Assembly: GCA_021849425.1 (NCBI GenBank)
Contig: JAJZSY010000011.1
Span: 21,504 to 85,503, forward strand
Length of the DNA stretch: 64,000 nucleotides
Origin: Pseudomonadota bacterium
GTDB lineage: Bacteria > Pseudomonadota > Alphaproteobacteria > Acetobacterales > Acetobacteraceae
Direction: 5' to 3'
This document shows positions 45,011 through 60,666 of this stretch, one piece after another. Position 1 is the first letter of the stretch. Each line of letters opens with the position of its first letter. The notes under the pieces were generated by a model, which saw only the letters and a program-made list of their open reading frames with translations, ran no database searches and was not told where the DNA came from. The translations under genes were made by a program, and so were the position numbers.

Positions 45011-46239
45011 GCTGCGTCCATGTGATCGGCGCCGGCATGGCGGGGCTCTCCGCCGCCACCGCCCTCGCCGCGCGCGGGCGGCAGGTCGTGCTCCACGAGG
45101 CGGCGAAATGGGCGGGCGGGCGTTGCCGTTCCTATCACGATACCGCTCTTGGCTGCCGCATCGACAACGGCAATCACCTGCTGCTGTCGGGCAACCGCGA
45201 CACGATGGCCTATCTGCGCCGAATCGGCGCCGAGGACACGCTGACCGGGCCGGACCGCCCGCTGTTTCCCTTCATCGATCTCGCCTCGGGCGAAGCCTGG
45301 ACGCTGCGGCTCAACCACGGAAAGCTGCCCTGGTGGGTGCTGCGCCGGAGCTGGCGCGTGCCGGGCACGGGCGCGCTCGACTATCTCGCGCTGCGGCGGT
45401 TGGAGCGCGCCGGGCGGGACGACCTCGTGGCCGGAATGCTGGGCGGGCTCGGCACGCTGTATGACCGGCTGCTCGAACCGCTGGCGATCGCAGCACTCAA
45501 CACGAAGCCGGAGGCCGCCTCCGCCGCGCCGCTGGCGGCCGTGGTGCGGGAGAGCCTCGCGCGCGGCGGCGCCGCGACCATGCCGCGGATGCCGAAGGTC
45601 GGGCTTTCGGAAAGCTTCGTCGATCCCGCCCTCGCCTATCTGCGCACGCACGGCGCCGAATTGCGGTTTGGCGCGCGGGTGGCCGGGCTGACGGTGACGG
45701 ATGGGCGGGTGAGCGGCCTGGCCGGCCCGAATGTGGATGAGATCGTCGGTGCGGAGGATGCGGTGATTCTGGCGACGCCGCCCTGGGTCGCGGCCGAGCT
45801 GCTGCCGGGGCTCACGGTGCCGCAGATGCACGAGGCGATCATCAACCTGCATTTCCGTGCCGGAATCGAACCCGGACCGGCGGGGCTCTATGGGCTGATC
45901 GGCGGCACCGCGGAATGGGTGTTCGAGAAATCCGAGGTCGTGTCGGTCACCATCAGCGCCGCCAATGACCGGCTCGGACAGGATACGGACGAGCTGGCCG
46001 CCGAGGTCTGGGCCGATCTCCGGCGCGGTTTCGGGTTGCCGCGGACGATCCCGCCCTATCGGGTGGTCAAGGAAAAGCGCGCAACCTTTGCCGCAACGCC
46101 CGCGCAACTCGCCCGGCGGCCCGAAGCGCGCACCGCTCTGGCCAACCTGATTCTCGCCGGCGATTATACCGCGACGGGCCTGCCCTCGACCATCGAAGGG
46201 GCGATCCGGTCGGGCGGCAGCGCGGCAAACGAGATCTGA
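45007..46239 (+). CDS. hpnE: HpnE, hydroxysqualene dehydroxylase
   Basis: A 410-residue FAD-dependent amine-oxidase-like protein that reduces hydroxysqualene to squalene. The dinucleotide-binding motif VHVIGAGMAGLSAATALAARG is followed by WAGGRCRSYHD and a C-terminal ILAGDYTATGLPSTIEGA. It is the last gene of the hpnABCDE operon; squalene-hopene cyclase, often next, is not here. Confidence 0.94.
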   Translation: MSCVHVIGAGMAGLSAATALAARGRQVVLHEAAKWAGGRCRSYHDTALGCRIDNGNHLLLSGNRDTMAYLRRIGAEDTLTGPDRPLFPFIDLASGEAWTLRLNHGKLPWWVLRRSWRVPGTGALDYLALRRLERAGRDDLVAGMLGGLGTLYDRLLEPLAIAALNTKPEAASAAPLAAVVRESLARGGAATMPRMPKVGLSESFVDPALAYLRTHGAELRFGARVAGLTVTDGRVSGLAGPNVDEIVGAEDAVILATPPWVAAELLPGLTVPQMHEAIINLHFRAGIEPGPAGLYGLIGGTAEWVFEKSEVVSVTISAANDRLGQDTDELAAEVWADLRRGFGLPRTIPPYRVVKEKRATFAATPAQLARRPEARTALANLILAGDYTATGLPSTIEGAIRSGGSAANEI

Positions 46240-46588
46240 TCTCGATTTTCGAGTCCCAGGAAAGCCGAAAGCCCAGGGCCGACGCCGTACTGGCACCGCA
46301 CTGCCGCAACATTCCGTTTCAGACGGAAAATCAGGGATTTGGCATTATTTCGATGCTATCTCGCAACGGTTTCATGGCGCGCCGACAGCTTTGCAAATCT
46401 GCAACACTCGGCATTCGTTAGTTCGGCGGCCCCGCGATCCGGTTATTTCCGCTTGACCGTCGGTGACTTAGGCGGAATGGTTGACATTAATTTGTAAGAG
46501 TCATGGCGCGCAAGAACAGCGCCGGCATCGGGAGGCAACGGGAAACGGCATGCGCGCCTGCGGCATGACTGATCGTCTGGGCAATCGT
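46240..46588. other. 349-base gap between hpnE and the ROK regulator
   Basis: The flanking genes are convergent. I see no convincing gene. A weak 6-base hairpin (TTCCGT/ACGGAA, about 46312-46328) lies after hpnE, and a TTGACA at 46481-46486 has no good -10 partner. No clear terminator. Confidence 0.4.
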
Positions 46589-47785
46589 TCACGACTCGAT
46601 CATGGGCCGGGCGCGATCGAGGCGAACCGGCGGATCATCGAGGAATTGCTGGAGCGCGAGCGCGATGCCGCCCATGGACGCGGCGATGCCGCTCATTTCG
46701 GAGACGACGATCTCGACATCCCGGTAGATCGCGGCGAGCGCATTGGCTTCCAGCGTTTCCATCGCCGCGGGCAACAGGAACGGCGCGAGTTGCGCGAGGC
46801 TGCCGCCGAGCACGATGCGGCGCGGGCTGATGATATTGATCAGGTTCGCAAGGCCGAGGCCGAGATGACGGCCGGCTTCGGCCATCACCGACCGCGCCAC
46901 CGCATCGCCGGCCTCGCAGGCTTCGCGCGCGGCCGCAACATCGCAAGCGCGGTGGCCGCGGGCGGCAAGATCGCCCAGGATCGCGCGTTCGGAAACATAG
47001 GCCTCGAAGCAGCCGCGCGCGCCACAGCCGCACGGGCGCCCGCCCGGGACGATCTTCATGTGGCCGATTTCGCCGGCGAGCCCGTGCGGGCCGCGATAAA
47101 GCTCGCCCATCAGATAGAGCCCGCCGCCGATGCCGGACCGGCCCATGACATAGATGAAATCGGCAATGTCGCGACTGGCGCCGAACAGATGCTCGGCAAG
47201 GGCTGCGGCCTTCACGTCGTTCTCGACGCGGACGGGAACTTTCATCCGCGCGGTGAGCGTGCCGGCCAGGTCGAGATCCCGCCAGCCGATATTCGGCGCG
47301 AAGACGACGCGGCCGCCGGTGGTGACGAGCGCAGGCACCGCGACGCCGACCGCGAGCAGCATGCTGCGCGGGGCCCGGAGCGCGCGCAGGGCGGCGGTTA
47401 TGCCGGCGCGCACAGCGGCGATCGCATCCTCGGGGGAGGTGCTGCCCGGCACGACGAGATCGGTGCAGGCGGCGCCATCGATCGTGGAGATCAGGATGCG
47501 GATGGCATCGGGCTCGACGCCGATGCCGGCCAGATAGCCGGCGCGCGGATCGAGACTGAGCGCGGTGGTCGGCCGACCGGCGCGGCCGGTCGGCGCCTCG
47601 GTATCGCGGCGGACGATCCCGCCCGATTCGAGATTGCTGATGATGATCGAGATGGTCGCGGGATCGATCCCCGAAATCTGCGAGAGCTTCTGCTGCGAGA
47701 TGCCCGGATTCTGGCGGATCATGTGGAACAGCCGCGCCGAATTGATCCGCCGGACCAGTGCCGAATTGACGCGCGCCCGGGTCAT
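46589..47785 (-). CDS. ROK-family transcriptional regulator
   Basis: A 398-residue regulator with an N-terminal winged helix (NPGISQQKLSQISGIDPATISIIISNLESGG) and a C-terminal ROK sugar-kinase-like domain containing the zinc site GGRPCGCGARGCFEAYVS. NagC- and XylR-type relatives repress sugar genes and release DNA on ligand binding. GGGGAGGGGAA precedes the ATG I chose at 47785; the frame extends to 47842. It diverges from an OprD-like porin, its most likely target. Confidence 0.9.
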   Translation of the reverse strand: MTRARVNSALVRRINSARLFHMIRQNPGISQQKLSQISGIDPATISIIISNLESGGIVRRDTEAPTGRAGRPTTALSLDPRAGYLAGIGVEPDAIRILISTIDGAACTDLVVPGSTSPEDAIAAVRAGITAALRALRAPRSMLLAVGVAVPALVTTGGRVVFAPNIGWRDLDLAGTLTARMKVPVRVENDVKAAALAEHLFGASRDIADFIYVMGRSGIGGGLYLMGELYRGPHGLAGEIGHMKIVPGGRPCGCGARGCFEAYVSERAILGDLAARGHRACDVAAAREACEAGDAVARSVMAEAGRHLGLGLANLINIISPRRIVLGGSLAQLAPFLLPAAMETLEANALAAIYRDVEIVVSEMSGIAASMGGIALALQQFLDDPPVRLDRARPMIES

Positions 47786-47851
47786 TTCCCCTCCCCCGGC
47801 GGCCGGATCATCGCGCCCCGCCGGCCGCGAAACCGACGCCATGAATCTTTC

Positions 47852-47880
47852 TTGACATTGAAAACGCTCCTCTCTACTGG
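47852..47880 (+). promoter_or_regulatory. Candidate promoter for the OprD-like porin
   Basis: TTGACA at 47852-47857, 17 bases, then TACTGG at 47875-47880. The -10 match is modest. The rest of the gap to 48162 holds no gene that I can support, so a transcript from here would have a leader of about 270 bases. Confidence 0.35.
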
Positions 47881-48162
47881 TTTCTTAAAGAGTAAAAATA
47901 ATTCGTGCAAGCGAGACGCAGAGCGCACCGCACGAAGAACAGACGGGGACGAAACGATGCCGGTTGCGGCAACTGAACGACAGCATCGGGTTTGCGGACA
48001 CCCGCGCGCGGCACAAGCCCGGCGCGCTTTCCACGCGGCATGGCCTGGCGCGGCCATCGCCTCTGTCCACCCGCCGCAGATGGCGAAGCGGCGGGCTGGA
48101 TCCGCGCGCATGGCGCGGATTTCGCCAACAAAAAAATCTTTCAACATGGAGGTTCAACCATA

Positions 48163-49635
48163 ATGCGAAACATCGGCAACCAGGCGGGCAGCGCCCCGGC
48201 CCGGTCCGCGACGCGGAAGCTGCGCCACGCCGCATGCGCCGCGGGCGTGATCAGCCTTTTCGGCCTCGCTCCGCTGGCGCACGCGCAAAGCCTGGGCGAC
48301 GCGCTGCGGCAGACCACGTTCCAGGGCATGGTCGGCGCGATCCACTTCGACTATGGCAACAACGGTCACTCGACGAAGAGCACGCACTCCTTCGCGATCG
48401 GCGGCCATCTGATCGCCCATACCGGCTCGTTCGACGGGTTCAGCGTCGGCCTCGGCGGGTATACCGCACAGTCGCTCGGCCTCTACAGCAAGAACAACGC
48501 CGGTGACAAAGTTCACTACGATGGCGAACTCACCGGTTCGCATTACGGCATCCAGTCGTTCCGGCAGGCGTATCTGCAGTATCAGACGCCGAAAGTGGAA
48601 ATCCGCTTCGGCCGTCAGCTGATCCAGACGCCGTATGCCAACCAGGATTACTACACGTTCAACCCGCGCGCCTTCATGGGCGTTGCCGGCGTTGTGAACG
48701 TGCTCGGCGACGGTTCGAACAAGGTCGATGCCGGCGCGCTCAGCCTCGATGGCAATCCGGCGGCGTTCAGCGTCTTCATGACGCGGATGTTCACCTATGA
48801 AAGCCGCTATGCAAGCTCCTTCGTTGCCAACAACCGCTATTCCGGCACCAAGCCGACCAACGGCTTCATCGCGATCGGCGCGCGGTATCACGGCAATGTC
48901 GGCTCGACCCAGCTGACGGCGCAGGCGTGGTATTACGATTTCTACCAGTACGCGCAGCTCCTTTATGGCCAGGTCGATCTCGTGCAGCCGCTCGCCAACG
49001 GCCAGGCCATCTTCGGCTCGGTGCAGGGGCTGACCGAGGGCAACTCGGCCGGCAATGCGTCGCGGATCGAGGCTTTCACCAGCAACAGCTCGAACTCGAT
49101 CAATGCGCATCTGTACGGCGCCAAGCTTGGCTACTCGTTCGGCGACGGCAGCATCGCGCTCATCGGCAACTATGCTCCGACCGAATACAACTCGTTCCAT
49201 CACGGCGGCGTGCTGCACCCCTATAACGACAATACCGGGACCAGCTTCACCGACACGATGCAGAACGGCGTTCCGAATCTCGGGCCGGGCTATGCGTACG
49301 GCATCACGTCCAACTACGACTTCCTCAACAAGAAGCTGAAGGTGGGCGTGACTTATGTGCGGTATCTCGTTCGCTACGGCTATGGCGGGGATGCGCAAAA
49401 CTACACGAGCTATGCGGGCCCCTACAGCTTCCCGAATGCCAACTACATTCCGAACCAGCAGCTCTGGGCGCTCGACGCGAATGCGTCATACGATCTGTCC
49501 TCGATCCTCAAGGGGCTTTCGGTGGCGGAAGACACGGACGTGACCGTTGCGGAAAACCGGGCGGGCTATACCGGTACCGCGCATTACAACAACCCTTACT
49601 TCAGCAGCCGCTTCTACCTCGAATATAATTTCTGA
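48163..49635 (+). CDS. OprD-like outer-membrane porin
   Basis: A 490-residue protein with a signal peptide ending LAPLAHA-QS and a beta-barrel pattern of alternating aromatic and polar residues (TSNYDFLNKKLKVGVTYVRY), ending with the typical C-terminal aromatic, FYLEYNF. Features such as FRQAYLQYQTPKVEIRFGRQ resemble OprD-type channels for small organic solutes. A long signal region (about 42 residues) precedes the mature part. GGAGG lies 11 bases before the ATG. Divergence from a ROK regulator suggests carbon-source control. Confidence 0.82.
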   Translation: MRNIGNQAGSAPARSATRKLRHAACAAGVISLFGLAPLAHAQSLGDALRQTTFQGMVGAIHFDYGNNGHSTKSTHSFAIGGHLIAHTGSFDGFSVGLGGYTAQSLGLYSKNNAGDKVHYDGELTGSHYGIQSFRQAYLQYQTPKVEIRFGRQLIQTPYANQDYYTFNPRAFMGVAGVVNVLGDGSNKVDAGALSLDGNPAAFSVFMTRMFTYESRYASSFVANNRYSGTKPTNGFIAIGARYHGNVGSTQLTAQAWYYDFYQYAQLLYGQVDLVQPLANGQAIFGSVQGLTEGNSAGNASRIEAFTSNSSNSINAHLYGAKLGYSFGDGSIALIGNYAPTEYNSFHHGGVLHPYNDNTGTSFTDTMQNGVPNLGPGYAYGITSNYDFLNKKLKVGVTYVRYLVRYGYGGDAQNYTSYAGPYSFPNANYIPNQQLWALDANASYDLSSILKGLSVAEDTDVTVAENRAGYTGTAHYNNPYFSSRFYLEYNF

Positions 49636-49653
49636 GGTTTCCGGCCAAAACGA

Positions 49654-49689
49654 CGCGCCCGGGTCAATGGCCCGGGCGCGTTTTCTTTT
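49654..49689 (+). terminator. Intrinsic terminator of the porin gene
   Basis: A perfect 10-base stem (CGCGCCCGGG and its complement) with a 7-base loop, followed by TTTTCTTTT, 18 bases after the porin stop. It also separates the porin from the convergent lipoprotein gene. Confidence 0.88.
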
Positions 49690-49813
49690 GCACGGCTCGG
49701 CAATGCCAATGCCGGATCAGACAGGCCCGGACGCAGGCCGGTTGCAGGAGGAAGAGGCACAATTAGCCGATCAGAGAAGTCCCTCCGATCGGGCGAGGCT
49801 CCAGGACGGCGCT

Positions 49814-50368
49814 TCAAAGATGCCGGCCGCGCTCCACCAGAAACTGCGCCGGCAGCACATTCGCGCCGACGAAGTGCAGCGTCATCAGGCGGCCGTTCCA
49901 GTAAGGACGGAAACACAAGGGCTGCTGCTTGCCCTTCAGGCTCCAGCATGCATCCTTCGGATTGACCGACTGGATGCCAGTCTCATCGACGACGTGCCCC
50001 TCGGGACTGACCACGCGCATGGTGAGTTGGCCGCCCGGCGCAACATAGATCGAGGTCCGCCCGCCATCCGCAAGCGGGCGATACAGCGTGTTGCCCAGGG
50101 TCAGATGCAGGAAGCCGATCTTGGTCAGCGGCTGGCCGTAATTCGAATAGCCGGTCCCAAGGCCGGGGCCGGCGGCCGGTGCCACCGCGCTGGCGGACGC
50201 CGCGGCACTTCCGGAGGCAGGCTGCGCGCCCGTTTGCAGGCCATGACCCGACATGCAGCCGCCCAGAGCCAGGGCGGGGATCAGCCACGCCAAATGCCGC
50301 AAGCCTCGCGCTCGCCCCGGCGCCGAAGCAGAACCGCTCCGTTCCGCCCGCATCGACTTCACTCTCAT
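49814..50368 (-). CDS. Predicted lipoprotein, last gene of the repeat-protein operon
   Basis: A 184-residue protein with a basic N-terminus and a lipoprotein signal ending LIPALALGGC. An Ala/Ser/Pro-rich stretch follows, then a beta-rich part (TKIGFLHLTLGNTLYRP, TSIYVAPGGQLTMRVVSPEG) and two cysteines (DACWSLKG, PLCFRPYW) likely to form a disulfide. I recognise no family. It is 78 bases downstream of, and co-directional with, the secreted-protein genes. An outer-membrane accessory role for the fibre system is inference; it does not look like a CsgG-type pore. Confidence 0.65.
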   Translation of the reverse strand: MRVKSMRAERSGSASAPGRARGLRHLAWLIPALALGGCMSGHGLQTGAQPASGSAAASASAVAPAAGPGLGTGYSNYGQPLTKIGFLHLTLGNTLYRPLADGGRTSIYVAPGGQLTMRVVSPEGHVVDETGIQSVNPKDACWSLKGKQQPLCFRPYWNGRLMTLHFVGANVLPAQFLVERGRHL

Positions 50369-50446
50369 GCTGCTATCCGATCCGGCAGGTTATCGTCGAG
50401 TTGCGGATATACCGGCCAGGTCTCGCATCGGCCGCGGCGCCGGGCT

Positions 50447-50848
50447 TCAGTGAACAATATTCAGGCTCACATTGCCATCCGATATGGGATTGGGCGCCGA
50501 TATCCGGCCAGGTACCACTTCATCCCAGAGCAGAACGCCATTGCCTCCCTTCGATTGCGCGGAGAGCGAGGGGGCAACCGATGGGATGCCCTGGGCGGTG
50601 GCCGAGGACATCTGTTGAACCGATAGCGGCGAAAGGGGCAGACCGATCTTCTGGATGGTCACCAATTCGACATGGCCGCCAGACCGCACCGCGCGCTCCG
50701 CGCCCTGCGCTCTTGCAAGTCCGGGGGCGAGGGCGCTGGCGGCTACCGCCACGCCGAGCCAGAAGCGAAGAGATCGCACCAGTGCGGATTTTCCAGGAAG
50801 AGGCCCTAAGCCTCCGTGCATTTTTTGCATGAGCGGGTTCCATCTCAC
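50447..50848 (-). CDS. Secreted protein of unknown function in the repeat-protein operon
   Basis: A 133-residue protein whose first 47 residues hold a signal peptide (SLRFWLGVAVAASALAPGLARA); the true start may be Met7 or Met10. The mature part is about 85 residues, Ser/Val-rich, with VELVTIQKIGLPLSPLSVQQ and a C-terminal ISDGNVSLNIVH. That end recalls VVNITLNH, which closes the one-repeat protein at 52331. Its start overlaps the previous gene's stop by four bases. Confidence 0.6.
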   Translation of the reverse strand: MRWNPLMQKMHGGLGPLPGKSALVRSLRFWLGVAVAASALAPGLARAQGAERAVRSGGHVELVTIQKIGLPLSPLSVQQMSSATAQGIPSVAPSLSAQSKGGNGVLLWDEVVPGRISAPNPISDGNVSLNIVH

Positions 50849-51585
50849 CGTGGCAGCATGGCCTGCATTACATGGTTGGCCTGGGCGGCATTCAGAAGCT
50901 GGGTCTGCATTCCGCTGATGTCGATGTTCAGCGTGCGGGTCTGCTGGATGATCTGGCCATTCACCGGGTTCTGGATCAGCGTCGACATTCCCGAAGAACC
51001 GACGGTATTGGCGATCATCGTGTAGAGCTGATTACCCGAGACGCCACCGCCATTACCACCCGCCGGCGGAACGAAGCTTGTGAAGGTCGTGCCCGTGGGC
51101 GTCGAACTCTGCTTGTTGATGACGCCTGCAGGTTTGGCCGCATTAATGACATCACCGAACGATGAGACCCTCTGCGGAGTCTGGGAGGTGGACGTGTATC
51201 CCTGCCCATTCAGGACGCCGCTCACCATATCGGGTGAAGTCGAGCGGAAGGCGGGGGAAATCTGCTGGGTCAGATGGCTGATGTCGCCTGACAGGTTCTG
51301 CACGGCCTGCCCGTTGACGAGCGTCTGGATCGAGAAGCCGAAATCGATGCCGATGCCGCGATCATTGGGCAGCGAAAATCCGCCGCGCATCCGGGCAAGT
51401 ATCGCATCCGGCACAATCGGCAAGCCATGTGAGGCAAAGCCGCCCGCGCCGGCGGAAACGGAAAAGCCCGGCGATCCCCCGCCGGGCGGACTGGCCGCGG
51501 CCGAAGCCCGGCCGATCGAGAGAGGCAGGACGCTGGCGGTACCCAGAAGCATGATCAGCATCGAGCGTGACATGACGCGCACCAT
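50845..51585 (-). CDS. Secreted protein with a double-glycine-like site next to a C39 peptidase
   Basis: A 246-residue protein with a signal peptide (LIMLLGTASVLPLSIGRASA). Residues 57-70 read IVPDAILARMRGGF: Met at -4, Leu at -7 and Val at -12 relative to Gly-Gly match the hydrophobic pattern of double-glycine leaders cut by C39 peptidases. After it come GIGIDFGFSIQTLVNGQAVQ and a Gly/Ser/Thr-rich middle. Near the C-terminus, TLIQNPVNGQIIQQTRTLNI (about 202-221) resembles the repeat of the neighbouring small protein. Starts at 51585 and 51573 are both possible. The C39 gene lies four bases upstream. Confidence 0.66.
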   Translation of the reverse strand: MVRVMSRSMLIMLLGTASVLPLSIGRASAAASPPGGGSPGFSVSAGAGGFASHGLPIVPDAILARMRGGFSLPNDRGIGIDFGFSIQTLVNGQAVQNLSGDISHLTQQISPAFRSTSPDMVSGVLNGQGYTSTSQTPQRVSSFGDVINAAKPAGVINKQSSTPTGTTFTSFVPPAGGNGGGVSGNQLYTMIANTVGSSGMSTLIQNPVNGQIIQQTRTLNIDISGMQTQLLNAAQANHVMQAMLPR

Positions 51586-51589
51586 TTCC

Positions 51590-52306
51590 CTAAAACGTGT
51601 TTTGCAGCTGCCAGCCATTGGCCGGCAGTCCGAGATCGCGAAGCTGGAAGTGAGCCAGAGACACCGGCGGCTGCGGCACGGCGTTCCAGACCGCCGGATT
51701 GTTGAAGGCGAGCCGCGCCTGCGGCAGATCTGACGTGATCGCGAAAAAAATGCCGCTCCACTGCTTCGCGAAGGTGGCAACCGGCTCGGCCCTCAGGCCG
51801 AGGCTGGGATCGGAGAGCAGCACCTCGCCATCGCGCACGCCGCGGACGAGAACGAAATGATGATACCCGTGATAATCTATGAGGACGATCGCCGGCACCC
51901 GAACCTCGCTCAGCTTCGCGAGGCTGGCCTTGAACCCGTTCGACGGGATGTGATGCCGGGCGAGATAGTTCTTCATGTCGAGCAGGGAAAAGCCAAGCCG
52001 GCGGATCTTTGCCTCGTCGCCATGCCGGTACATGCTTTTGAAAACCGTCTCCTCGCTGACCGGCACGTGATAGACATAGGTCAGAAGCGTCGCCAGCGCC
52101 GCGGAGCCGCAGGAAAAATCATATTTCTGATGGACCGTGCTGGTGAATTTCATATCCTGCCAGCTGCGCACGTGCATATGGGCGCCGCTGATCGCGGTGT
52201 TGGGCAAGGCGAACTGCAAGACATCGGCCCGGGCCTGGGTGGAGGCGAGACAGGCCGCCACAACCAGGGCGATGGCTCTGCCAAATCTGAAAATCGACCC
52301 GAACAT
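51590..52306 (-). CDS. Periplasmic C39-family cysteine peptidase
   Basis: A 238-residue protein with a signal peptide (AIALVVAACLASTQARA) and a stand-alone peptidase C39 fold. The oxyanion Gln60 and nucleophile Cys66 are in HQKYDFSCGSAALATLL, the His in YHGYHHFVLVRG (149/150) and Asp166 in LLSDPSLG. There is no ABC transporter portion, so it acts in the periplasm, as FapD of the Pseudomonas Fap amyloid system does. The likely substrate is the double-glycine-like protein encoded next to it, or the repeat proteins. Those target assignments are inference. Confidence 0.85.
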   Translation of the reverse strand: MFGSIFRFGRAIALVVAACLASTQARADVLQFALPNTAISGAHMHVRSWQDMKFTSTVHQKYDFSCGSAALATLLTYVYHVPVSEETVFKSMYRHGDEAKIRRLGFSLLDMKNYLARHHIPSNGFKASLAKLSEVRVPAIVLIDYHGYHHFVLVRGVRDGEVLLSDPSLGLRAEPVATFAKQWSGIFFAITSDLPQARLAFNNPAVWNAVPQPPVSLAHFQLRDLGLPANGWQLQNTF

Positions 52307-52330
52307 CGCGCCTCGCCCCCCGATCGCGGC

Positions 52331-52651
52331 TTAGTGGTTGAGCGTGATGTTCACGACCGTCGAGGTCTGGAACAGCGCATTGCTACCGGTGTTCTGGATG
52401 ACCGTGGTCAGCCCCTCGTTCCCGGAAATCGAGTTGGTGTTCGAGATCGCGCCGGTGGTGCCGGATGCCGAATTGCCAAAGGACGTTGCCTTCAGCTTGC
52501 TCATCGGAATGTCGCGCCCGTGAGATGCGGCAAGGGCGGAGGCGGAAACCGGCGTGCCGAACGGATTGCCGCCACCGGCGGCATATCCGGCAACCGGGAC
52601 CGCGATGATTGACAGCGCGAGGATGTAGGTGGCTGGGATCTTTTTTGGCAT
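52331..52651 (-). CDS. Small secreted protein with a single amyloid-like repeat
   Basis: A 106-residue protein with a signal peptide (ILALSIIAVPVAGYA). The mature part is about 80 residues, Asn/Ser/Thr-rich, and ends SGNEGLTTVIQNTGSNALFQ followed by TSTVVNITLNH. The QNTGSNALFQ core (86-95) is one copy of the module present four times in each of the two large neighbours. One copy in a short protein suggests a minor subunit or nucleator, comparable in logic to CsgB or FapB. It follows the major repeat gene after 66 bases containing a strong hairpin. Confidence 0.72.
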   Translation of the reverse strand: MPKKIPATYILALSIIAVPVAGYAAGGGNPFGTPVSASALAASHGRDIPMSKLKATSFGNSASGTTGAISNTNSISGNEGLTTVIQNTGSNALFQTSTVVNITLNH

Positions 52652-52673
52652 GAAGGCCGCTCCTCAGGAGAAT

Positions 52674-52700
52674 GCGTGCACATCGCGAGGATGTGCACGC
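52674..52700 (-). promoter_or_regulatory. Hairpin between the major repeat gene and its operon
   Basis: A perfect 11-base stem (GCGTGCACATC and its complement) with a 5-base loop lies between the two genes, with no T-run after it. It could act as an mRNA stabiliser or processing site letting the upstream subunit be made in excess; a full terminator is less likely. Confidence 0.6.
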
Positions 52701-52717
52701 CAGGCTCACACGCGGTG

Positions 52718-53728
52718 TTAGCGGACCGCAGCCACGGAAACCGAGTTCTGGATCAGGCTGTTGGCGCCCGTATTCTGCGAGGCCTGCAGCACGCCCTGCG
52801 CACCGTTGAACGAGCTGTCCATGCTCACCTTGGCCGAACCGTTGGCGAGGTTCGCGGTATTGCAGTAGACGCCGCCATTCGTGTTGGCGTTGGCGACAGC
52901 GCCGGCGAGGGCGTCGGAGCTCGCCGCAACCAGCTTGACCGTTCCGATCGCGGCCGAATTCTGCATCAGGCTGTTCGCGCCGGAGTTCTGGTTCACGTTG
53001 ACCACGCCGTTCACACGGTCGAAGGACTTGGTGATGGTCGAGGAGGCATTGGCGCTGTGCTCACGGGCGTAGTTGCCGGCGACGGCACCCTTATTGTCCG
53101 CATCGGCGAGCGAACCGGCGAGGGTCAAGGCGGTGCCGCTTACCGGGTTGACCGCCGCAACGGCCGCCGAGTTCTGCAGCAGGCTGTTGTTGCCGGCGTT
53201 CTGGTTCAGCTGGGCGACACCATTGAAGCCCTCGTAGGAGTTGCCGACCGTGGCGGTCTGGGTCACGCTGCCATCGTCACGGTCCCAGGAGCTGCGCGGG
53301 CCGATCTCATCCTCGTTGCCCATCACGCCGCCATAATTGCCCGCACCGGCAACCGCGAGACCGAGGCCGACCGTGTAGCTCTTGCCCTCCGGGTTGTGGA
53401 CATAGGCGAGCGCCAGGGAGTTCTGCAGCTGGCTGTTGGCGCCGGCATTCTGCGCCTGGTTCGAAACGCCCTTGGCGCCCGAATTGTAGGAATTGGTCAG
53501 GCTGGCGCTGTTGGTCTGGCGGCCCATGTTCGCTTCGTTGCCGGCGACAGTGCCGCTATTGGCCGCAGAGGCCCAGGCAACGAACGCGTCGAAAGTGATC
53601 GGCGCCGGCGAATGGTTGTTGTGCTTACCCTGATGCGACCCACCGTCATCGCCGTTACGGGCGAAAGCAATAACCGGAGTCACCGCGAGGATGGAAAGGG
53701 CCGCGCCCATCAGAAGAACTTTACGCAT
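52718..53728 (-). CDS. Secreted four-repeat protein A, putative amyloid/fibre major subunit
   Basis: A 336-residue protein with a signal peptide (MRKVLLMGAALSILAVTPVI then AFA). Four modules have cores at 93-110 (QNAGANSQLQNSLALAYV), 176-193, 247-264 and 318-335 (QNTGANSLIQNSVSVAAV), spaced 71-83 residues apart. Each core is preceded by S-[FY]-N-x-x-x-G-V and, further upstream, by an N-x-G-x-V-x-G-N-x-A block, so the whole unit is about 50 residues. Q, N, G and S content and regular spacing recall curlin (Q-x-G-x-x-N-x-A-x-x-x-Q) and FapC repeats, but the spacing is its own. A sigma54 promoter lies upstream. Fibre function is inferred. Confidence 0.8.
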   Translation of the reverse strand: MRKVLLMGAALSILAVTPVIAFARNGDDGGSHQGKHNNHSPAPITFDAFVAWASAANSGTVAGNEANMGRQTNSASLTNSYNSGAKGVSNQAQNAGANSQLQNSLALAYVHNPEGKSYTVGLGLAVAGAGNYGGVMGNEDEIGPRSSWDRDDGSVTQTATVGNSYEGFNGVAQLNQNAGNNSLLQNSAAVAAVNPVSGTALTLAGSLADADNKGAVAGNYAREHSANASSTITKSFDRVNGVVNVNQNSGANSLMQNSAAIGTVKLVAASSDALAGAVANANTNGGVYCNTANLANGSAKVSMDSSFNGAQGVLQASQNTGANSLIQNSVSVAAVR

Positions 53729-53840
53729 GACAATAAATCTCCACTTCCCTAAGGGTTGGCTGCGCCATTTCCTTTGACGAAGCCCTTGTTTCATTCATTA
53801 CAGACTGATGTTTTTCAAATCTGTCTGTGCATCTTGTTAA

Positions 53841-53855
53841 GCAATTGGCATGCCA
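53841..53855 (-). promoter_or_regulatory. Sigma54 (-24/-12) promoter of repeat protein A
   Basis: On the minus strand TGGCATGCCAATTGC has GG and GC separated by exactly ten bases, matching the TGGCAC-N5-TTGC consensus at all but one position. Transcription would start near 53829, about 100 bases before the ATG. It lies in an AT-rich 233-base gap next to the sigma54 activator gene. Confidence 0.82.
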
Positions 53856-53961
53856 ACTGGATTTGGTTTTATTATATTGTTTGTTTTCAATGATTTTATG
53901 ATTTCTGGAAGTATTAAAAATATCGAATACAATTATTTATGATTTCATGTGACGTATTGCG

Positions 53962-55149
53962 TTACGTTTTCGCCGTCTGCTCGGCGTAACATTCGCGATC
54001 CTCTTCGCGGCATTCGTTACGAATATCCTGGATCATCTGGTCGAGCTTGAACCGCTCGATCAGGCGATAGATCGTCATCCGCGAAATGCCGAGATTTTCC
54101 GCCGCTTCGGTCAGGTTGCCGCCGCACTGGCGGATCATGTCGACCAGCTCTCCGCGGCGCTCGGCGGCGGAGCGACGCCGCTCGGTCCGCGGCCGCCGCA
54201 CCGTGTCGTTCGCCGGACGCGGCGCCGGCTGCACCGCCGGAGGTGAAGGCACCAGTTCCGGCACAAACCCGTCTTCGAGATCGCCCGCATCGATCGTGTC
54301 GTCGTCACAAACGACGACCGCCCGCTGAACCACCGCCATCAACTCGCGGATATTGCCCGGCCAGCCGTAGGACAGCAGGCGCCGCTGCGCCGCCTCGGTG
54401 AAATTCATCTCGCCCCGCCCCATCTCGCCGGCGAATTTGCGCAGGAAAAACAGGGCAAGGGTCAGAATGTCATGCCCACGTTCCCGCAGCGGCGGGCTGT
54501 GGATGGTCAGCACCTTGAGGCGGAAGAACAGATCGCTTCGGAACGTTCCGGCATCGATCAGGCTGGTGAAATCGACATTCGTTGCCGAAACGATCCGCAC
54601 ATCGACCGGAATCTGGTCGACGCCGCCAACCAGCTGGATGGTCTTTTCCTGCAGGACCCGCAGCAGGTATCCCTGCATGTCCGCCGGCAGATGACCGACC
54701 TCGTCCAGAAACAGCGTGCCGCCCTGCGCGGCCTCGATGATGCCTTTCTTGCGGGTCGCCGCGCCGGTGAACGCGCCTTTTTCATAGCCGAACAATTCCG
54801 AGGCGATCAGCGTCGGCGGAATGGCGGCGCAGTTGATCACACGAAACGGGCCCCGCGCACGCGGCGAACGATCGTGAATCGCATGGGCGATGAGTTCCTT
54901 GCCCGTTCCGGTTTCACCCGTGATCAGGACCGGCGCATCGCTCGCCGCATATTTGCGGATCAGGTTGAAGATCGTGCGGATTTGCGGGCTGTCACCGACG
55001 ATGCACCGCTCCGAACCGGAGCGGAGTACCGCAGCAATCTTGGCCTCATCGACATCTCTTTGTGCATCGCTTCGGCCGACCACGCCGGAAGCGTATGAGC
55101 CGCGATAGGCGCTGACCGGAAGTCTCTCAGAGCATCCCGAACGTATCAT
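53962..55149 (-). CDS. Sigma54-dependent activator without a sensory domain
   Basis: A 395-residue AAA+ enhancer-binding protein. Walker A is GETGTGKE (78-85), the sigma54-contacting loop GAFTGA (125-130) and Walker B GGTLFLDEVGHLP (143-155). A Pro/Arg-rich linker leads to a Fis-type helix-turn-helix (LTEAAENLGISRMTIYRLIE). Only about 50 residues precede the AAA+ domain, with no receiver, PAS or GAF domain, so control may come through its own expression or a partner, as for PspF. It sits between two repeat-protein genes that both have sigma54 promoters and is their obvious activator. Confidence 0.92.
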   Translation of the reverse strand: MIRSGCSERLPVSAYRGSYASGVVGRSDAQRDVDEAKIAAVLRSGSERCIVGDSPQIRTIFNLIRKYAASDAPVLITGETGTGKELIAHAIHDRSPRARGPFRVINCAAIPPTLIASELFGYEKGAFTGAATRKKGIIEAAQGGTLFLDEVGHLPADMQGYLLRVLQEKTIQLVGGVDQIPVDVRIVSATNVDFTSLIDAGTFRSDLFFRLKVLTIHSPPLRERGHDILTLALFFLRKFAGEMGRGEMNFTEAAQRRLLSYGWPGNIRELMAVVQRAVVVCDDDTIDAGDLEDGFVPELVPSPPAVQPAPRPANDTVRRPRTERRRSAAERRGELVDMIRQCGGNLTEAAENLGISRMTIYRLIERFKLDQMIQDIRNECREEDRECYAEQTAKT

Positions 55150-55219
55150 TAAAAAGATTCTCCGGTCCCAAATTTTATGTTTATCACGCGGAAATCTTAA
55201 TAATTAACCGTAACCCATT

Positions 55220-55246
55220 ACGCAACACATTTTATACGTGTGTTAC
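55220..55246. promoter_or_regulatory. Candidate activator-binding inverted repeat
   Basis: AACACA (55224-55229) and TGTGTT (55239-55244) form an inverted repeat inside ACGCAACAC...GTGTGTTAC. A related word, ACGCAATAC, lies on the minus strand at 53954-53962 upstream of the other sigma54 promoter. Position about 220 and 100 bases upstream fits enhancer sites. Weak evidence. Confidence 0.25.
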
Positions 55247-55463
55247 AAATCATGAAATAACTTTTAGTAGAATTTTCATGTATTTGTATATCGTTTATCG
55301 GAATATAACTTAAGGAAAATATTCTGGAAATCATACAATTCTTGGTTGTGTGACGTTGAGGTGACGCCGCAAGATTGTCGAAGGCGGCAATGCTGAGCAC
55401 CGCGACAGATCGGACAAAACCATGAAAATTGTTTTAAATCAGTACTCTGTGAGAAAATTGGAA

Positions 55464-55478
55464 TGGCACTAAAATTGC
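55464..55478 (+). promoter_or_regulatory. Sigma54 (-24/-12) promoter of repeat protein B
   Basis: TGGCACTAAAATTGC is a full match to the TGGCAC-N5-TTGC consensus, followed by TT. The expected transcript start is near 55490, giving a leader of about 67 bases. Confidence 0.9.
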
Positions 55479-55556
55479 TTAATGAAAATTTAGAATAGCA
55501 ATCTCAATTTTTATCCGAGCCTGCCACTGGCAGGACAAGACAAGGCGAGGCGAACA

Positions 55557-56693
55557 ATGAAACAAAAAACAAGAATTATATTTGGAGTATCATCGGCTTT
55601 GATTTTCAGCGTGGCGGCGCGCGCTGGGAATCAGTCCATCGAGAGCTATATAAATCTTGCCGCTGCTCAGAATAATGCGCGCTCGATTCGGAATTTTTCG
55701 AATGATGGCGGCGTCAATATCGCCGGACAGTGGCATTTCATCGCCTCTGCCGTGTCGAACCGATCGTTCGACGAGAGCGCCGGGATTGGAACCAGCAGCC
55801 AGAATGCCGGCGCGAACAGCGTCCTGCAGAACTCCGTCTCGGTCGCATACATCTCTTCCTGCGGGCTCTGCATCGGCCCCGGGATTGGCAGACGCGGGGT
55901 GGTGATCGGCGCGGCCAGCAACATGGCGATTTCAGCCGGGAATCATGATTACCCCGGATACGGTCAGGCAAGCCCGGCATCCTCCGGCGGACAGCCCGGC
56001 AATAATGGCGGATCGGGGAGTAACGGCGGGACCAGCGGTGGGACCGGCGGCGGAACCGGATCGGGGACCAGCGGCGGGACCGGCGGCGGAACCGGCGGCG
56101 GAACGGGAAGTGGTACGCCGGCCAGTTTCGGCCTGACCGCGCAGGGGAGCGATCCCTTCGCCACCGTCAGCCAGTCGTTCAACAATGATGTCGGCATCTT
56201 CACCATCAACCAGAACGGTGGCGCCAACAGCACGGTCCAGACAGCGACAGCCGTGGCAGCGCTCGACACCGCGGGTTCGATCGGCGCGGCGGAGGCCGCG
56301 GCAAAGGCGCAGAATTCAGCGCGTTCGCGGCAAAACACCTCGTACAGCATCGACACCCCGACAACCTCGACCGTGCAGAGCAGCATGGATCATTCGACCG
56401 GCGTGCTTGGTCTCGCCCAGAATACCGGGTCGAACGCGGTCGTGCAGAACGCCGCTGCGGTCACGGCAATCAGCGCGCGGGTTGCCCCTGCCAGCGCACT
56501 GGCCCTGGCCGCGGCTTCATCGTTCAATCAGGCATCGCTCAGCGGAAACTATGCCTCTTCGATCGGGCAGACGAACGCGGTGTCGATGGACCAGAGCTAT
56601 AACGGGACGAGCGGTATTCTGATGGCTGCCCAGAATGCCGGAGCGAACTCGATCGTGCAGAACAGCGTGTCGGTCGCGTCGATCCGCCCGTAA
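55557..56693 (+). CDS. Secreted four-repeat protein B, putative amyloid/fibre subunit
   Basis: A 378-residue protein with a signal peptide (IIFGVSSALIFSVAARA). Repeat cores lie at 82-99 (QNAGANSVLQNSVSVAYI), 219-236, 288-305 and 359-376 (QNAGANSIVQNSVSVASI). Between the first and second is a Gly/Ser/Thr linker (about 144-188) built from GGT, GGG and GSG units, and an SCGLC pair near 102. The C-terminal unit SMDQSYNGTSGILMAAQNAG is almost the same as that of protein A (SMDSSFNGAQGVLQASQNTG), so the two are paralogues. It is transcribed away from the activator gene from its own sigma54 promoter. Confidence 0.8.
   Translation: MKQKTRIIFGVSSALIFSVAARAGNQSIESYINLAAAQNNARSIRNFSNDGGVNIAGQWHFIASAVSNRSFDESAGIGTSSQNAGANSVLQNSVSVAYISSCGLCIGPGIGRRGVVIGAASNMAISAGNHDYPGYGQASPASSGGQPGNNGGSGSNGGTSGGTGGGTGSGTSGGTGGGTGGGTGSGTPASFGLTAQGSDPFATVSQSFNNDVGIFTINQNGGANSTVQTATAVAALDTAGSIGAAEAAAKAQNSARSRQNTSYSIDTPTTSTVQSSMDHSTGVLGLAQNTGSNAVVQNAAAVTAISARVAPASALALAAASSFNQASLSGNYASSIGQTNAVSMDQSYNGTSGILMAAQNAGANSIVQNSVSVASIRP
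55986..56120 (+). repeat. Gly-rich coding tandem repeat
   Basis: Short GC-rich units encoding GGT/GGG/GSG recur through residues about 144-188 of repeat protein B, for example GGCGGGACC and GGCGGAACC. Such tracts often change length between strains. Confidence 0.65.
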
Positions 56694-56706
56694 GGGGCGC
56701 ATGGCT

Positions 56707-56754
56707 AGAGCATCATCCGATCGGATTAGTCATCTGATCGGATAAAGATGCTCT
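56707..56754. repeat. REP-like palindrome, copy 2
   Basis: ATCCGATCGGAT (56715-56726) pairs with ATCTGATCGGAT (56732-56743) with one wobble, and outer arms AGAGCATC (56707-56714) and GATGCTCT (56747-56754) extend the stem. Most bases match the copy at 13555-13601. It lies 14 bases after the repeat protein B stop and could end or stabilise that transcript. Confidence 0.8.
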
Positions 56755-56813
56755 GGTTATCAATATCATAGGGCACTTTCCGGATCCGGCGGGGTCCGGA
56801 AAGCCGCCCTCAG

Positions 56814-57635
56814 TCATGGCCGGCACTCGCCCTGCCATGAAGCGCGGCGACTGAGCAGCGCCAGCACGGCAAACGCGCAGGCCAGAAGGGCTGCACCGAG
56901 GGCGGCGCCCGCGTAGATGTCCCCGCGATCGGTCAGGGCGAAAACCTCGACCGGCGCCGTCACCCATTGCGGCGGATACAGCATGATCGACGCGCCCAGC
57001 TCTCCCATCGACAGGGCGAAGCCGAGCGAAAGCGCCGCCAGGATCTGCGGCAGAAGCAACGGCAGCGTTATCGTGATGAGAACCCGCGACCGCGTCGCGC
57101 CGAGCGACCCGGCGATCTCTTCAAGGTTTTGCGGCAGAAGCTCAAGGCCCGCACCGATCGTTGCATAGGCATAGGCCATGACCAGGACGACATGGGCGAG
57201 GATGACCAGAATCGCCGTTCCGTTCAGCAGAATCGGCTTGCGGCTGAAGGCGATCAGCAGGGCGAGGCCGATCGTCGACGAGGGCAGCGCGACCGGCAGG
57301 AAATAGAGCGTGTCGAGCGCGCGGCGGAGGGAACGCGGCAGGCCGCGCGCCGCCAGCGCCCCGCCACCCCCGAGCAGCAGCGCGCCGGCTGAGGCCAGCA
57401 ACCCGGTTGCAACACTGTGCAGCAGGGCGGCGCCCTGATCTCCCGACGCCAATGCACGCATATGATGAAGTGTCAGGCGCGAAGGCAGCACTCCATTCCA
57501 TTGCGCGGTGAAAGCGGCCAGCAACAGCAGAAGCAGGGGCAGGCCGAACACACCCCCGAACAGCGCCGCCACGGCAAGGCGGGCCCACCGCTTCGTCGTC
57601 GGCAGGAACACCAGCTGGCTCATGAGGCCAGCCAC
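56814..57635 (-). CDS. ABC transporter permease, PhnV-like
   Basis: A 273-residue inner-membrane permease with six hydrophobic helices and the coupling-loop motif EEIAGSLGATRSRVLITITLP (EAA type). It matches the second permease of 2-aminoethylphosphonate transporters. Its start overlaps the first permease gene by 16 bases. It closes the four-gene operon. Confidence 0.85.
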   Translation of the reverse strand: MAGLMSQLVFLPTTKRWARLAVAALFGGVFGLPLLLLLLAAFTAQWNGVLPSRLTLHHMRALASGDQGAALLHSVATGLLASAGALLLGGGGALAARGLPRSLRRALDTLYFLPVALPSSTIGLALLIAFSRKPILLNGTAILVILAHVVLVMAYAYATIGAGLELLPQNLEEIAGSLGATRSRVLITITLPLLLPQILAALSLGFALSMGELGASIMLYPPQWVTAPVEVFALTDRGDIYAGAALGAALLACAFAVLALLSRRASWQGECRP

Positions 57636-58477
57636 GCGCCGAGCCGGGTAATGCCGAGGCGGTAGAGCGCAAAGACGGCAAGCGAGAGACCAGCGTCGCA
57701 GACCGCGATGATGCTCGCCCCCGCATAGTTGAATTGCTGCACCGCATCGCCATAGATCAGCATCGGCAGGGTGATGACATTCTTTGCCCCCATCACCAGC
57801 ATGATGCCGAATTCATTCAATGTCAGCAGCAGGCAGAGTCCGCCACCCGCCAGCAGGGACGGAAGCAGTGCCGGGACAACGACGCGACGGACCACGCCGA
57901 TCGGCCCCTCGCCGAGACCGCTCGCCATTTCGAGCAGCGCGGGATCGAGCGACTGGAACCCGGCGAGCAGCGGACGCAGCACGAAAGGCGTATAGAACGT
58001 CACCTCCGCCAGGACGACACCCCAGAACCCGTAGAGAAAACTCGCCGACTGACGTGAACCGTCGAGCAGCGGCGCAAGCAGCGCCGTCATCAGGCCGGCG
58101 TTTCCGTAGAGAAACGTGAGGGAAAGCGCGATCAGAAACGAGGGAAAGGAAAGATAGGCGTCCACCAGCCGGCCAAGGGACGCCGCACCGCGGAACGGCG
58201 CCAGGTTGAGAAGCAATGCCAGGACAAACCCCAGCAGAAGACACAAGATCGTCGCGGTCAGGGCGATCCGCAGCGTGTGGCCGAGTGCGCTTGCAAAGAC
58301 CCGGGAGCTGATGACCTGCAGTGCCGGCGCGAGGCTCCAGCCCTTTGCCCCGCGGAAGGCGGCGGTGATCATCAACCCAAGCGGATAGAGCAACAGAAGG
58401 AAAACCGCCGCGAGGAACGGCACCAGTGTGATGGCGCGCCGCCATCGCCGGCCGGCGCCTGGCCCGGTGCCGTTCAT
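57620..58477 (-). CDS. ABC transporter permease, PhnU-like
   Basis: A 285-residue permease starting MNGTGPGAGRRWRRAITLVP; the frame is open further upstream, but that part overlaps the ATPase gene and is not family-like. The EAA motif appears as MASGLGEGPIGVVRRVVVPAL. With the downstream permease it forms the membrane channel. Its ATG overlaps the ATPase stop. Confidence 0.86.
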   Translation of the reverse strand: MNGTGPGAGRRWRRAITLVPFLAAVFLLLLYPLGLMITAAFRGAKGWSLAPALQVISSRVFASALGHTLRIALTATILCLLLGFVLALLLNLAPFRGAASLGRLVDAYLSFPSFLIALSLTFLYGNAGLMTALLAPLLDGSRQSASFLYGFWGVVLAEVTFYTPFVLRPLLAGFQSLDPALLEMASGLGEGPIGVVRRVVVPALLPSLLAGGGLCLLLTLNEFGIMLVMGAKNVITLPMLIYGDAVQQFNYAGASIIAVCDAGLSLAVFALYRLGITRLGAWLAS

Positions 58478-59559
58478 GCCTCCGCAACCAGGCAGGCGCG
58501 GCCGGGATCGAAGCCGAGCGTCACCATGGCCCCGACCGCCGGAGCGCCCTGCCCTGCCGGCAGATCGATCCTGAGCGGGTGCGCTCCCGCCACGGCCTGG
58601 ACGCGCTGCACCGGCCCCATCCACTGCACGCCGGTGATCCGCGCTGCAATCCGGTTCGGGCCGGTTGCGCCGATTTCGATCGCATGCGGGCGCAGACAGA
58701 GCAGCGGACGCGGAGCCGGGCTTCCCGATGCGGTCCTGACCGTCAGGTGCTGTCCGTCGAAATTCACCACCGCGAGATCGCGATGGCAGGCTTCGAGACG
58801 GACCGGGAGCAGATTTGCCTGGCCGAAAAATTCCGCGGCGTATCGATGTTCGGGCGTTTCGTAGAGGCTGCGCGGAGTCCCGCACGCGGCAATCCGGCCC
58901 TCGCGCATCAGCACGATCCGGTCGCCAAGCGCGATGGCCTCGCCCTGATCGTGCGTGACATAAACGATGGCCAGTTCAGGCAGTCTGGCATGAAGGCTGC
59001 GAAGTTCATCCAGCAGCCCGGCACGCAAGGGCGCATCGAGGGCGGAGAGCGGTTCGTCGAGCAGCAGGACCGGCGGGCGAATCGCCAGCGCGCGGGCAAT
59101 CGCGACGCGCTGCTGCTGACCGCCGGAAAGTTCGCGCGGATAACGGCCGGCAAAACCAGCCATGCCGACGAGATCGAGACAGGCGGCAACACGCTCGGCA
59201 ATCTCCGGCTTCGGCAGGCGACGCGCGTTGAGACCGAAGCCGACATTGGCGGCCACCGTCAGATGCGGAAACAACGCGTAATTCTGCACGACCATGCCAA
59301 GCCCGCGGGCATGGGGCGGCAGCGCGGTGACATCGCGCCCGGCCAGCATGATCCGCCCCGAAGTCGGCGGCACGAAGCCGGCAATCGCGCGGAGGATGGT
59401 GGATTTGCCCGACCCGGACGGGCCGAGCAGCACCTTGACTTCGCCCGGCGCCACAGACAGCGAAACGCGATCGAGCGCCACCGCCCCTCGATACCGCACC
59501 GTCACGGTATCGAGGGCGATGGACGCCGTCAGCGAAGTGTCGGGATCAGCGTCGCGCAA
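58474..59559 (-). CDS. ABC transporter ATP-binding protein, PhnT-like
   Basis: A 361-residue ATPase with Walker A GPSGSGKST, Q-loop VVQNYALFPHLTV, signature LSGGQQQRVAIARAL, Walker B LLLDEPLSALD and switch His in YVTHDQGEA, followed by a TOBE domain from about residue 270. It powers the two permeases. The order binding protein-ATPase-permease-permease equals phnSTUV for 2-aminoethylphosphonate. Confidence 0.9.
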   Translation of the reverse strand: MRDADPDTSLTASIALDTVTVRYRGAVALDRVSLSVAPGEVKVLLGPSGSGKSTILRAIAGFVPPTSGRIMLAGRDVTALPPHARGLGMVVQNYALFPHLTVAANVGFGLNARRLPKPEIAERVAACLDLVGMAGFAGRYPRELSGGQQQRVAIARALAIRPPVLLLDEPLSALDAPLRAGLLDELRSLHARLPELAIVYVTHDQGEAIALGDRIVLMREGRIAACGTPRSLYETPEHRYAAEFFGQANLLPVRLEACHRDLAVVNFDGQHLTVRTASGSPAPRPLLCLRPHAIEIGATGPNRIAARITGVQWMGPVQRVQAVAGAHPLRIDLPAGQGAPAVGAMVTLGFDPGRACLVAEA

Positions 59560-59607
59560 TGCCTGGTCCCATCTGGCCCGTCACGCCGCGCGCGGCCGGC
59601 ACCGGTC

Positions 59608-60666
59608 TCAACTGCCGGTGACGCGATGCCAACGGGCGATGTTGGCATCGAGCCCGCCCAGAACCCCGGTCCAGTCCGGCGACCAGACATCGACACCGTG
59701 CATGATCCCGGCCAGCGCCTCGGCCGTCTTGCCACGCGCCGGAACATCGCTCCGCACCGGAAAGCCGCGGGCGACATCATAGACGGAGTCCTGCGCCTCG
59801 CGACCCAGCAGGAAGTCGATCAGCCTCGCCGCCGCGGCGGCGTGCGGCGCATTCTTCACAAGGGCGATATCGTAGGGGATCGGCATGGTGATGCGGCGGC
59901 CGCCATGCGCCGGGAAGAAGATGCCGAGATGCGGGTATTGCCGCATCTGGGCGAAATTCATCTGCACATCGCCATTCGCCACGAGGATTTCGCCCTTGTC
60001 GACGAGCCCGGCAAGGCGCCCGGTCGAGGCCGACGGTCCCAGATTGTTGGCCTGGAGCTTGCGCAGATAGGCAAACCCCTGATCCGCGCCGCCCATCGCC
60101 TGGATGATCTCAAGCATCACCGCGGTGCCGTCACCGGCCTGGCCGGGGGTTGAATACTGCAGCCGGTTTTTCAGGCCCGGCGCGAGCAGCGCGGCGTAGG
60201 TCGCCGGCGGCGCCTTCAGTTCTGCCGTGTTGTAGATCCAGCAGGCATAGTTGTTGACCAGCGGGAACCAGAGATCGCGGGCGCTGCGGGTGGAAGCCGG
60301 AATGACGCCGAGAGACGATGGCTTCATCGGCGCCAGCACACCGAGAGATGCCGCCTTCTGCATGAAGGGCGGCAGGGTCACCAGCACATCCGCCTGCGGA
60401 TTGGACCGTTCGGCGAGCACACGGTTGACCACCACGCCCGAGCCCGCCTCGACATACCGCACCGCGATGCCGGTTTTTTTGGTGAAGGCGGCAAAGACGG
60501 TGTCAAACCAGTTGGGTTTGCCATCCTTCAGGCCATCGGCCGAATACACGGTGACGACGCCGCTGGCGCGGGCGGCGCGCGTGGCCGCCACGCTCGCCAA
60601 AGCGGCGGAGCCGGCCAGCGCGGTGCGGCGCGAAACGCCGGTTCGGATCGGGGTCGGGATTGGCAT
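59608..60666 (-). CDS. 2-aminoethylphosphonate-type substrate-binding protein, PhnS-like
   Basis: A 352-residue periplasmic binding protein. The N-terminus has a twin-arginine-like signal ([20 protein letters not shown]). The mature part (VVTVYSADGLKDGKPNWFDT, GSGVVVNRVLAERSNPQADV) is like iron/thiamine/phosphonate class binders and closest, in my memory, to PhnS. GGAG precedes the ATG. No phosphonatase or transaminase gene accompanies the operon, so the substrate is tentative. Confidence 0.8.
   Translation of the reverse strand: MPIPTPIRTGVSRRTALAGSAALASVAATRAARASGVVTVYSADGLKDGKPNWFDTVFAAFTKKTGIAVRYVEAGSGVVVNRVLAERSNPQADVLVTLPPFMQKAASLGVLAPMKPSSLGVIPASTRSARDLWFPLVNNYACWIYNTAELKAPPATYAALLAPGLKNRLQYSTPGQAGDGTAVMLEIIQAMGGADQGFAYLRKLQANNLGPSASTGRLAGLVDKGEILVANGDVQMNFAQMRQYPHLGIFFPAHGGRRITMPIPYDIALVKNAPHAAAAARLIDFLLGREAQDSVYDVARGFPVRSDVPARGKTAEALAGIMHGVDVWSPDWTGVLGGLDANIARWHRVTGS

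Follow-up and report, generated by a model that had tools for sequence, protein, structure and literature searches.

A four-repeat Fap-type locus predicted to encode surface amyloid fibres in an Acetobacteraceae genome

Fap is a bacterial amyloid system, and a relative of it is described here from a 64 kb stretch of DNA (the whole of which is called the window) of a bacterium of the family Acetobacteraceae, probably near Acidiphilium to judge by the nearest named database matches (77% and 79% identity) and by the related loci. The locus, at positions 49814 to 56693, very probably encodes Fap amyloid homologues, namely two four-repeat FapC-like subunits (repA and repB), a mini-subunit, a FapD-type peptidase and a FapE-like protein, which are predicted to build surface amyloid fibres that leave the cell via a FapF-like pore whose gene lies elsewhere in the genome. 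The sequence itself shows these homologies, a conserved order of the genes, the sigma54 sites and a FapF homologue on a separate contig; fibre formation and cleavage are what we infer from it. Among the Fap-type features looked for, imperfect FapB/FapC repeats with a FapC fold, a FapD-type periplasmic C39 peptidase, FapE (by profile-profile comparison) and a FapF outer-membrane pore encoded in the genome were all found. A preliminary description of this DNA had noted a parallel with Fap, which the homologues bear out, and had held that repeat spacing and gene set match neither Fap nor curli; its interpretation is supported in part.

The repeats of the two large subunits are central to this assignment. 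Four Q-N-x-G-x-N-S-x-x-Q-N modules had been ascribed to each; all four are exact in repA, while repB has two exact and two degenerate ones and shows four modules when scored on the six-position Fap core. On that core, 6 windows of repA and 7 of repB score at least 4/6 (shuffle means 0.55 and 0.49), all eight modules score 5 or 6 of 6, and repA departs from the core solely by having Ala or Ser in place of one Asn. The proteins are indeed paralogues (38% identity over 184 columns, E 6e-21), and the small protein described as having one module has a single, degenerate one. In NCBIfam, repA matches FapB (E 1.1e-8) and repB matches FapC (NF058558, E 2.7e-4), and the predicted structure of the subunit matches the FapC cross-beta fibril. 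A PDB sequence search with the repA alignment gave nothing at E up to 1, and the kinship of repA to PDB entries is visible only by fold. All 36 database homologues of repA bear the precomputed label PF27129, which means that Pfam already lists this repeat family by one name or another. The three repeats per subunit usual in Fap are found in neither repA nor repB, which have four; 32/36 of these homologues also have four (the other four have 3, 3, 5 and 7). Three repeats are regarded as usual, not defining.

The C39 peptidase domain is real (Pfam E 1.9e-17). The protein matches the NCBIfam FapD profile NF058616 at E 2.6e-43 and 147.9 bits, under the 330-bit cut-off, and the Cys, His and Asp of the C39 centre are conserved in an alignment of 5 proteins. 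In a FapD tree of 31 proteins, a small sample of our own choice, 11 canonical members and 20 from Acetobacteraceae and Acidithiobacillus are split by a branch with support 100/100. The nearest row to the FapD of the window is that of locus L005.

All eight open reading frames of the preliminary description are present where it had placed them. The minus-strand unit runs from repA through the mini-subunit, the C39 peptidase, the FapE-like protein and the LWDE protein to the lipoprotein, the sigma54 activator precedes repA on that strand, and repB is divergent. The features are as follows.

49814..50368, minus strand: lipoprotein, 184 amino acids (aa), lipobox LGGC; final gene of the unit
50447..50848, minus strand: small secreted 'LWDE' protein, 133 aa counted from GTG, with a conserved LWDE motif; the real start may be internal to this frame
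50845..51573, minus strand: FapE-like protein, 242 aa, leader VPDAILARMRGG then F
51590..52306, minus strand: FapD-type C39 peptidase, 238 aa, with a signal peptide as judged by eye
52331..52651, minus strand: one-repeat mini-subunit, 106 aa, one degenerate Fap module
52718..53728, minus strand: repA, FapB/FapC-like subunit, 336 aa, four Fap repeats; start at 53728
53841..53855, minus strand: sigma54 -24/-12 site TGGCATGCCAATTGC, 127 nucleotides (nt) upstream of the repA start
53962..55149, minus strand: sigma54 activator, AAA+ (Pfam PF00158, E 2.2e-67) and Fis-type helix-turn-helix
55464..55478, plus strand: sigma54 -24/-12 site TGGCACTAAAATTGC, 93 nt upstream of the repB start
55557..56693, plus strand: repB, second FapC-like subunit, 378 aa, four Fap repeats; divergent transcription

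The FapE-like protein was recognised by comparing two profiles, one built from 18 divergent FapE-like proteins with no canonical member among them, the other from 11 canonical FapE proteins. The two align over 32 columns (probability 95.9, E 5.5e-9), which consist of LxDxELxxMRG[GRK][FY] and the residues following it, and which cover the leader. The AlphaFold model of the protein was poor (pLDDT, the model's confidence score, 54) and was not used.

Counted from a cut after RG[G/R/K], this leader has a hydrophobic residue at -12, Glu/Asp at -8, Leu/Met at -7 and Gly at -2, which we take to be the double-glycine-leader positions of C39 peptidases. A strict regular expression and a looser score were picked on these positions after the sequences had been seen, so the scoring is not a blind test; between-family cross-hits and the mini-subunits of L014 and L019 (called in longer reading frames) were dropped before counting. 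The strict form fits 13/20 divergent and 10/11 canonical FapE, 3/21 LWDE proteins and 2/18 mini-subunits, against a background of 4/2849 other open reading frames, taken from these loci in every frame; one of the four is a FapF. By the looser score, the leader is present in 11/15 FapE of type I, 5/5 of type II (one at another spot) and 11/11 canonical ones, where shuffles lead one to expect 1.33/15, 0.46/5 and 1.16/11. The same score finds it in 6/21 LWDE proteins (0.69 in shuffles), 4/18 mini-subunits (0.95) and 0/49 negatives, namely subunits, C39 proteins and lipoproteins (3.8 expected). Scores below 4.5 in 4/15 type-I FapE (that of the window included), 15/21 LWDE proteins and 14/18 mini-subunits speak against the leader, as does L019, where the best-scoring spot differs from the RGG site.

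As a lead from these alignments, most FapE proteins examined, canonical ones too, bear a double-glycine-like leader ending RGG, RGR or RGK; all 11 canonical leaders end GR or GK, whereas that of the window ends RGG. A wider proposal can be put forward tentatively. FapD may be a periplasmic double-glycine protease and FapE the bearer of a C39-type leader (-12 hydrophobic, -8 acidic or amide, -7 Leu/Met, -2 Gly, -1 Gly/Arg/Lys). The same leader would have spread to the mini-subunit and the LWDE protein in a second Fap lineage, so that a protease cut rather than a chaperone would free the fibre starters in the periplasm. A paper of 2017 left the FapD substrate open and said that Fap proteins are without canonical C39 sequences (PMC5557850), and a 2025 review has FapD thought to process FapE and FapF (PMC12822426). 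The shared leader would be a precise, mutable candidate for the FapD cut site, clearest here as RGG, and offers a testable answer to the question of the FapD substrate. Titles and beginnings of abstracts, with subscription papers mostly outside the search, yielded no literature on a C39-type leader in FapE. A separate observation concerns FapF, where a leader-like stretch (LLDSEMATLRGA or LAPDDLVTMRGR, for example) lies close to the end of the coiled coil in 7/19 rows (L005, L007, L043, L056, L057, L058 and contig C31 of the window's genome, G000); the L014 row is a wrong-frame fusion. This is the place of a FapD cut speculated on in 2017, and the heptads could partly yield such a stretch by chance.

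It was also observed that the genes travel together. One scan of named genomes gave 36 pattern matches, 15 of them confirmed, and 14 loci. The core order is kept in 14/14 related loci. FapD, the FapE-like protein and the mini-subunit each occur in 14/14, the mini-subunit directly before FapD, and repA has four modules in 14/14, the L016 copy being cut by its contig. LWDE profile members and lipoprotein homologues are each found in 11/14 loci (the latter in 0/3 of the Acidithiobacillus type), and FapF lies inside the fetched stretch in 13/14. Among 200 genomes of the family, repA occurs in 4 and FapF in 12, all 4 being among the 12; three of the four repA genomes are apparently those of L006, L010 and L014, and the four are not independent because they are kin. 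The 4 genomes of the genus listed there include 1 with repA and 2 with FapF. Of viral contigs, 33 stretches matched the pattern and none encodes a relative. In two genomes of the window's own class (L043 and L044), operons were seen with FapB/C-like proteins, FapD, canonical FapE and FapF, in which a further gene of about 200 aa separates fapE from fapF; the 16 kb fetched for each showed no activator. Titles and beginnings of abstracts, mostly outside subscription papers, gave no literature on Fap in Acetobacteraceae.

As for the pore, the genome holds two FapF homologues, on contigs C46 and C31, and none in the window. The lone C31 FapF matches NF058560 at E 2.8e-43, under the cut-off, and the FapF homologue of L010 matches PDB FapF at 3e-36. 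The C31 copy shares 66% identity with the FapF of L005 and 45% with the one on C46; as L005 is also nearest in the FapD tree, C31 FapF is likely the partner pore of the window locus. Contig C46 carries a second Fap locus (L019:7788-13525) with an activator, FapF, a one-repeat subunit, a mini-subunit, FapD, a FapE-like protein and an LWDE protein. Its one-repeat subunit (by eye) is preceded by a strict sigma54 site, and loci like it occur in four further genomes of the family (L057-L060). Another genome (L038) has two adjacent fap gene sets, in which FapD, FapE and the LWDE protein are each present twice.

The sigma54 control proposed earlier is supported by two strict sites of the form TGGCA-N6-TTGC, one upstream of repA and one upstream of repB. 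They are the only ones in the window, for which single-base shuffles give an expectation of 0.47; for the pattern with one extra base, dinucleotide shuffles give 0.12, and two matches were reached in 2 shuffles. The activator likewise proved to have an AAA+ domain and a Fis-type helix-turn-helix, and its Pfam listing shows no sensor domain. The genome has a single match to the sigma54 DNA-binding domain, which implies one rpoN. Among the relatives, a strict site lies 125-168 nt upstream of the chosen repA start in 10/13 readable loci, and is present in 8/8 loci where an activator is found and the upstream region can be read. L013 and L015, activator-less with long flanks, have no site, and L008 (5.3 kb) has neither site nor activator; in L009 and L011 the site is present and the sequence ends before the activator region, and L016 is cut. 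Activator homologues (E up to 1e-60) occur at 9/14 related loci and at 8/10 fetched canonical fap loci, and the fap genes of P. fluorescens UK4 are down when rpoN is mutated (PMC8202526). Thus, this locus is not alone in its sigma54 control.

Taken as a working system, the locus would operate in the following manner. Sigma54 RNA polymerase, driven by the adjoining activator, would transcribe both subunit genes, and the products would pass the inner membrane via Sec. In the periplasm, the FapD-type peptidase would cut the FapE-like protein where its RGG leader ends, with the LWDE protein and the mini-subunit as possible further substrates. FapF would export the subunits, whose four layers would then stack into FapC-type beta-solenoid fibres.

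Several results weigh against this reading. The strict published Fap repeat, G-x4-N-x3-G-x6-N (PMC3792158), fits 2/4 modules of repA and 0/4 of repB, and no Fap match in NCBIfam gets to its curated cut-off, so that standard annotation probably leaves these genes hypothetical. Of five repA models, built on an alignment of 18 rows, two were confident (82) and three poor (33-38), and a Foldseek search up to E 0.001 found nothing. The 242-aa protein of the window is missed by the curated FapE profile NF058559 and is therefore a distant relation, and single-profile searches found 1/11 canonical FapE below 1e-3 and, in the reverse direction, no divergent ones. The protein had been called double-glycine-like; its leader does end in RGG, but Ile at -8 is disallowed by the strict form, a one-position miss, and the leaders of the window's LWDE protein and mini-subunit are degenerate. 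In Pseudomonas, roughly the first 70 residues of FapE yielded no peptides (PMC5557850), whereas the canonical FapE leader in L036 ends at residue 40, which is compatible with a cut there but does not match it. Finally, FapF is unlinked to the window locus instead of lying in a fapABCDEF or fapBCDEF operon, and the 19 kb around the C31 copy hold no strict sigma54 site. Since FapF lies in the fetched loci of 13/14 relatives and a detached fapF was accepted in the 2013 survey, linkage is regarded as common, not defining.

That detachment could also mean that the locus is the decaying remnant of a Fap operon which lost its linked fapF and makes fibres no more. The 2013 survey read two matches of one A. 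ferrivorans strain as remains of a partially deleted operon (PMC3792158), and of the 4 listed genomes of the genus, repA is in 1. Such decay is unlikely, as all eight frames are open, the core order is kept, sigma54 sites recur upstream of repA, and the C31 FapF frame is open and closest to a linked FapF. Still less probable is a secretion unit that resembles Fap, as the Fil system with its C39 peptidase FilB and FilC does, and exports a non-amyloid adhesin or pilus-like filament. Fil has in common with the present system a C39 peptidase and a FapF-like pore, the C39 protein also matches FilB (E 4e-30) and all four FapF homologues tested match FilC; however, the FapD and FapF profile scores are better than these, and the FapC cross-beta fibril is matched by the predicted subunit structure. 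The likeness to curlin repeats was not upheld, repA and repB having no Pfam match, PF07012 included, at E up to 1, and a curli-type system is therefore the most improbable of these alternatives.

A Fap homologue remains the best account. With Pseudomonas Fap (fapABCDEF) the locus shares FapB/C-type repeats, the predicted FapC fold, a C39 FapD, a FapE leader of the same layout, a FapF homologue in the genome and a sigma54 activator adjoining the genes. It differs in its four rather than three repeats, the detached fapF, the divergent second subunit gene and the order repA-mini-FapD-FapE-LWDE-lipoprotein, and it adds to textbook Fap the one-repeat mini-subunit, the LWDE protein and the lipoprotein. 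The Acidithiobacillus loci (L016-L018) share its core gene order and four-repeat subunit, and differ in having no lipoprotein homologue and in a FapD on its own branch. That layout has been known in part since 2013, when a detached fapF and FapC with 4-8 repeats were recorded for Acidithiobacillus; the same survey found fapA often deleted (PMC3792158).

Surveys of 2025 report the canonical order in >90% of clusters, one operon in 99.5% of genomes (PMC12392863, PMC12822426) and three repeats in 94.2% of FapC (PMC12392863). A 2025 review describes Fap as an amyloid that is 'fixed' in evolution, with conserved synteny and three repeats in almost every case (PMC12822426). The present lineage, with four repeats, different partners and a different layout, and with two Fap loci in the window's genome, differs from that picture. 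The stricter filter of PMC12392863 asks for at least 3 further Fap-profile genes within 5 kb, and the window locus probably fails it, because besides the paralogous subunit only FapD and the profile-missed FapE lie nearby. In 'F. caldus' (Acidithiobacillia), vesicles that contain FapF and FapD attach to sulfur (PMC10853474), which hints at a possible role of such fibres in attachment in acid habitats.

A few observations on the surroundings may be added. The outer-membrane-like protein at 48163-49635 (490 aa) was considered as the missing pore and set aside, its single Pfam match being far under cut-off, with none in NCBIfam or PDB and none to the FapF profile at 1e-5. Rfam at gathering scores gave no match in 46000-60500. 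The repB linker (window 56009-56116) is rich in Gly, Ser and Thr and is built from 12-nt repeats. ABC transporter genes (ATPase, permeases and binding protein, by eye from the translations) adjoin the locus at 56814-60666.

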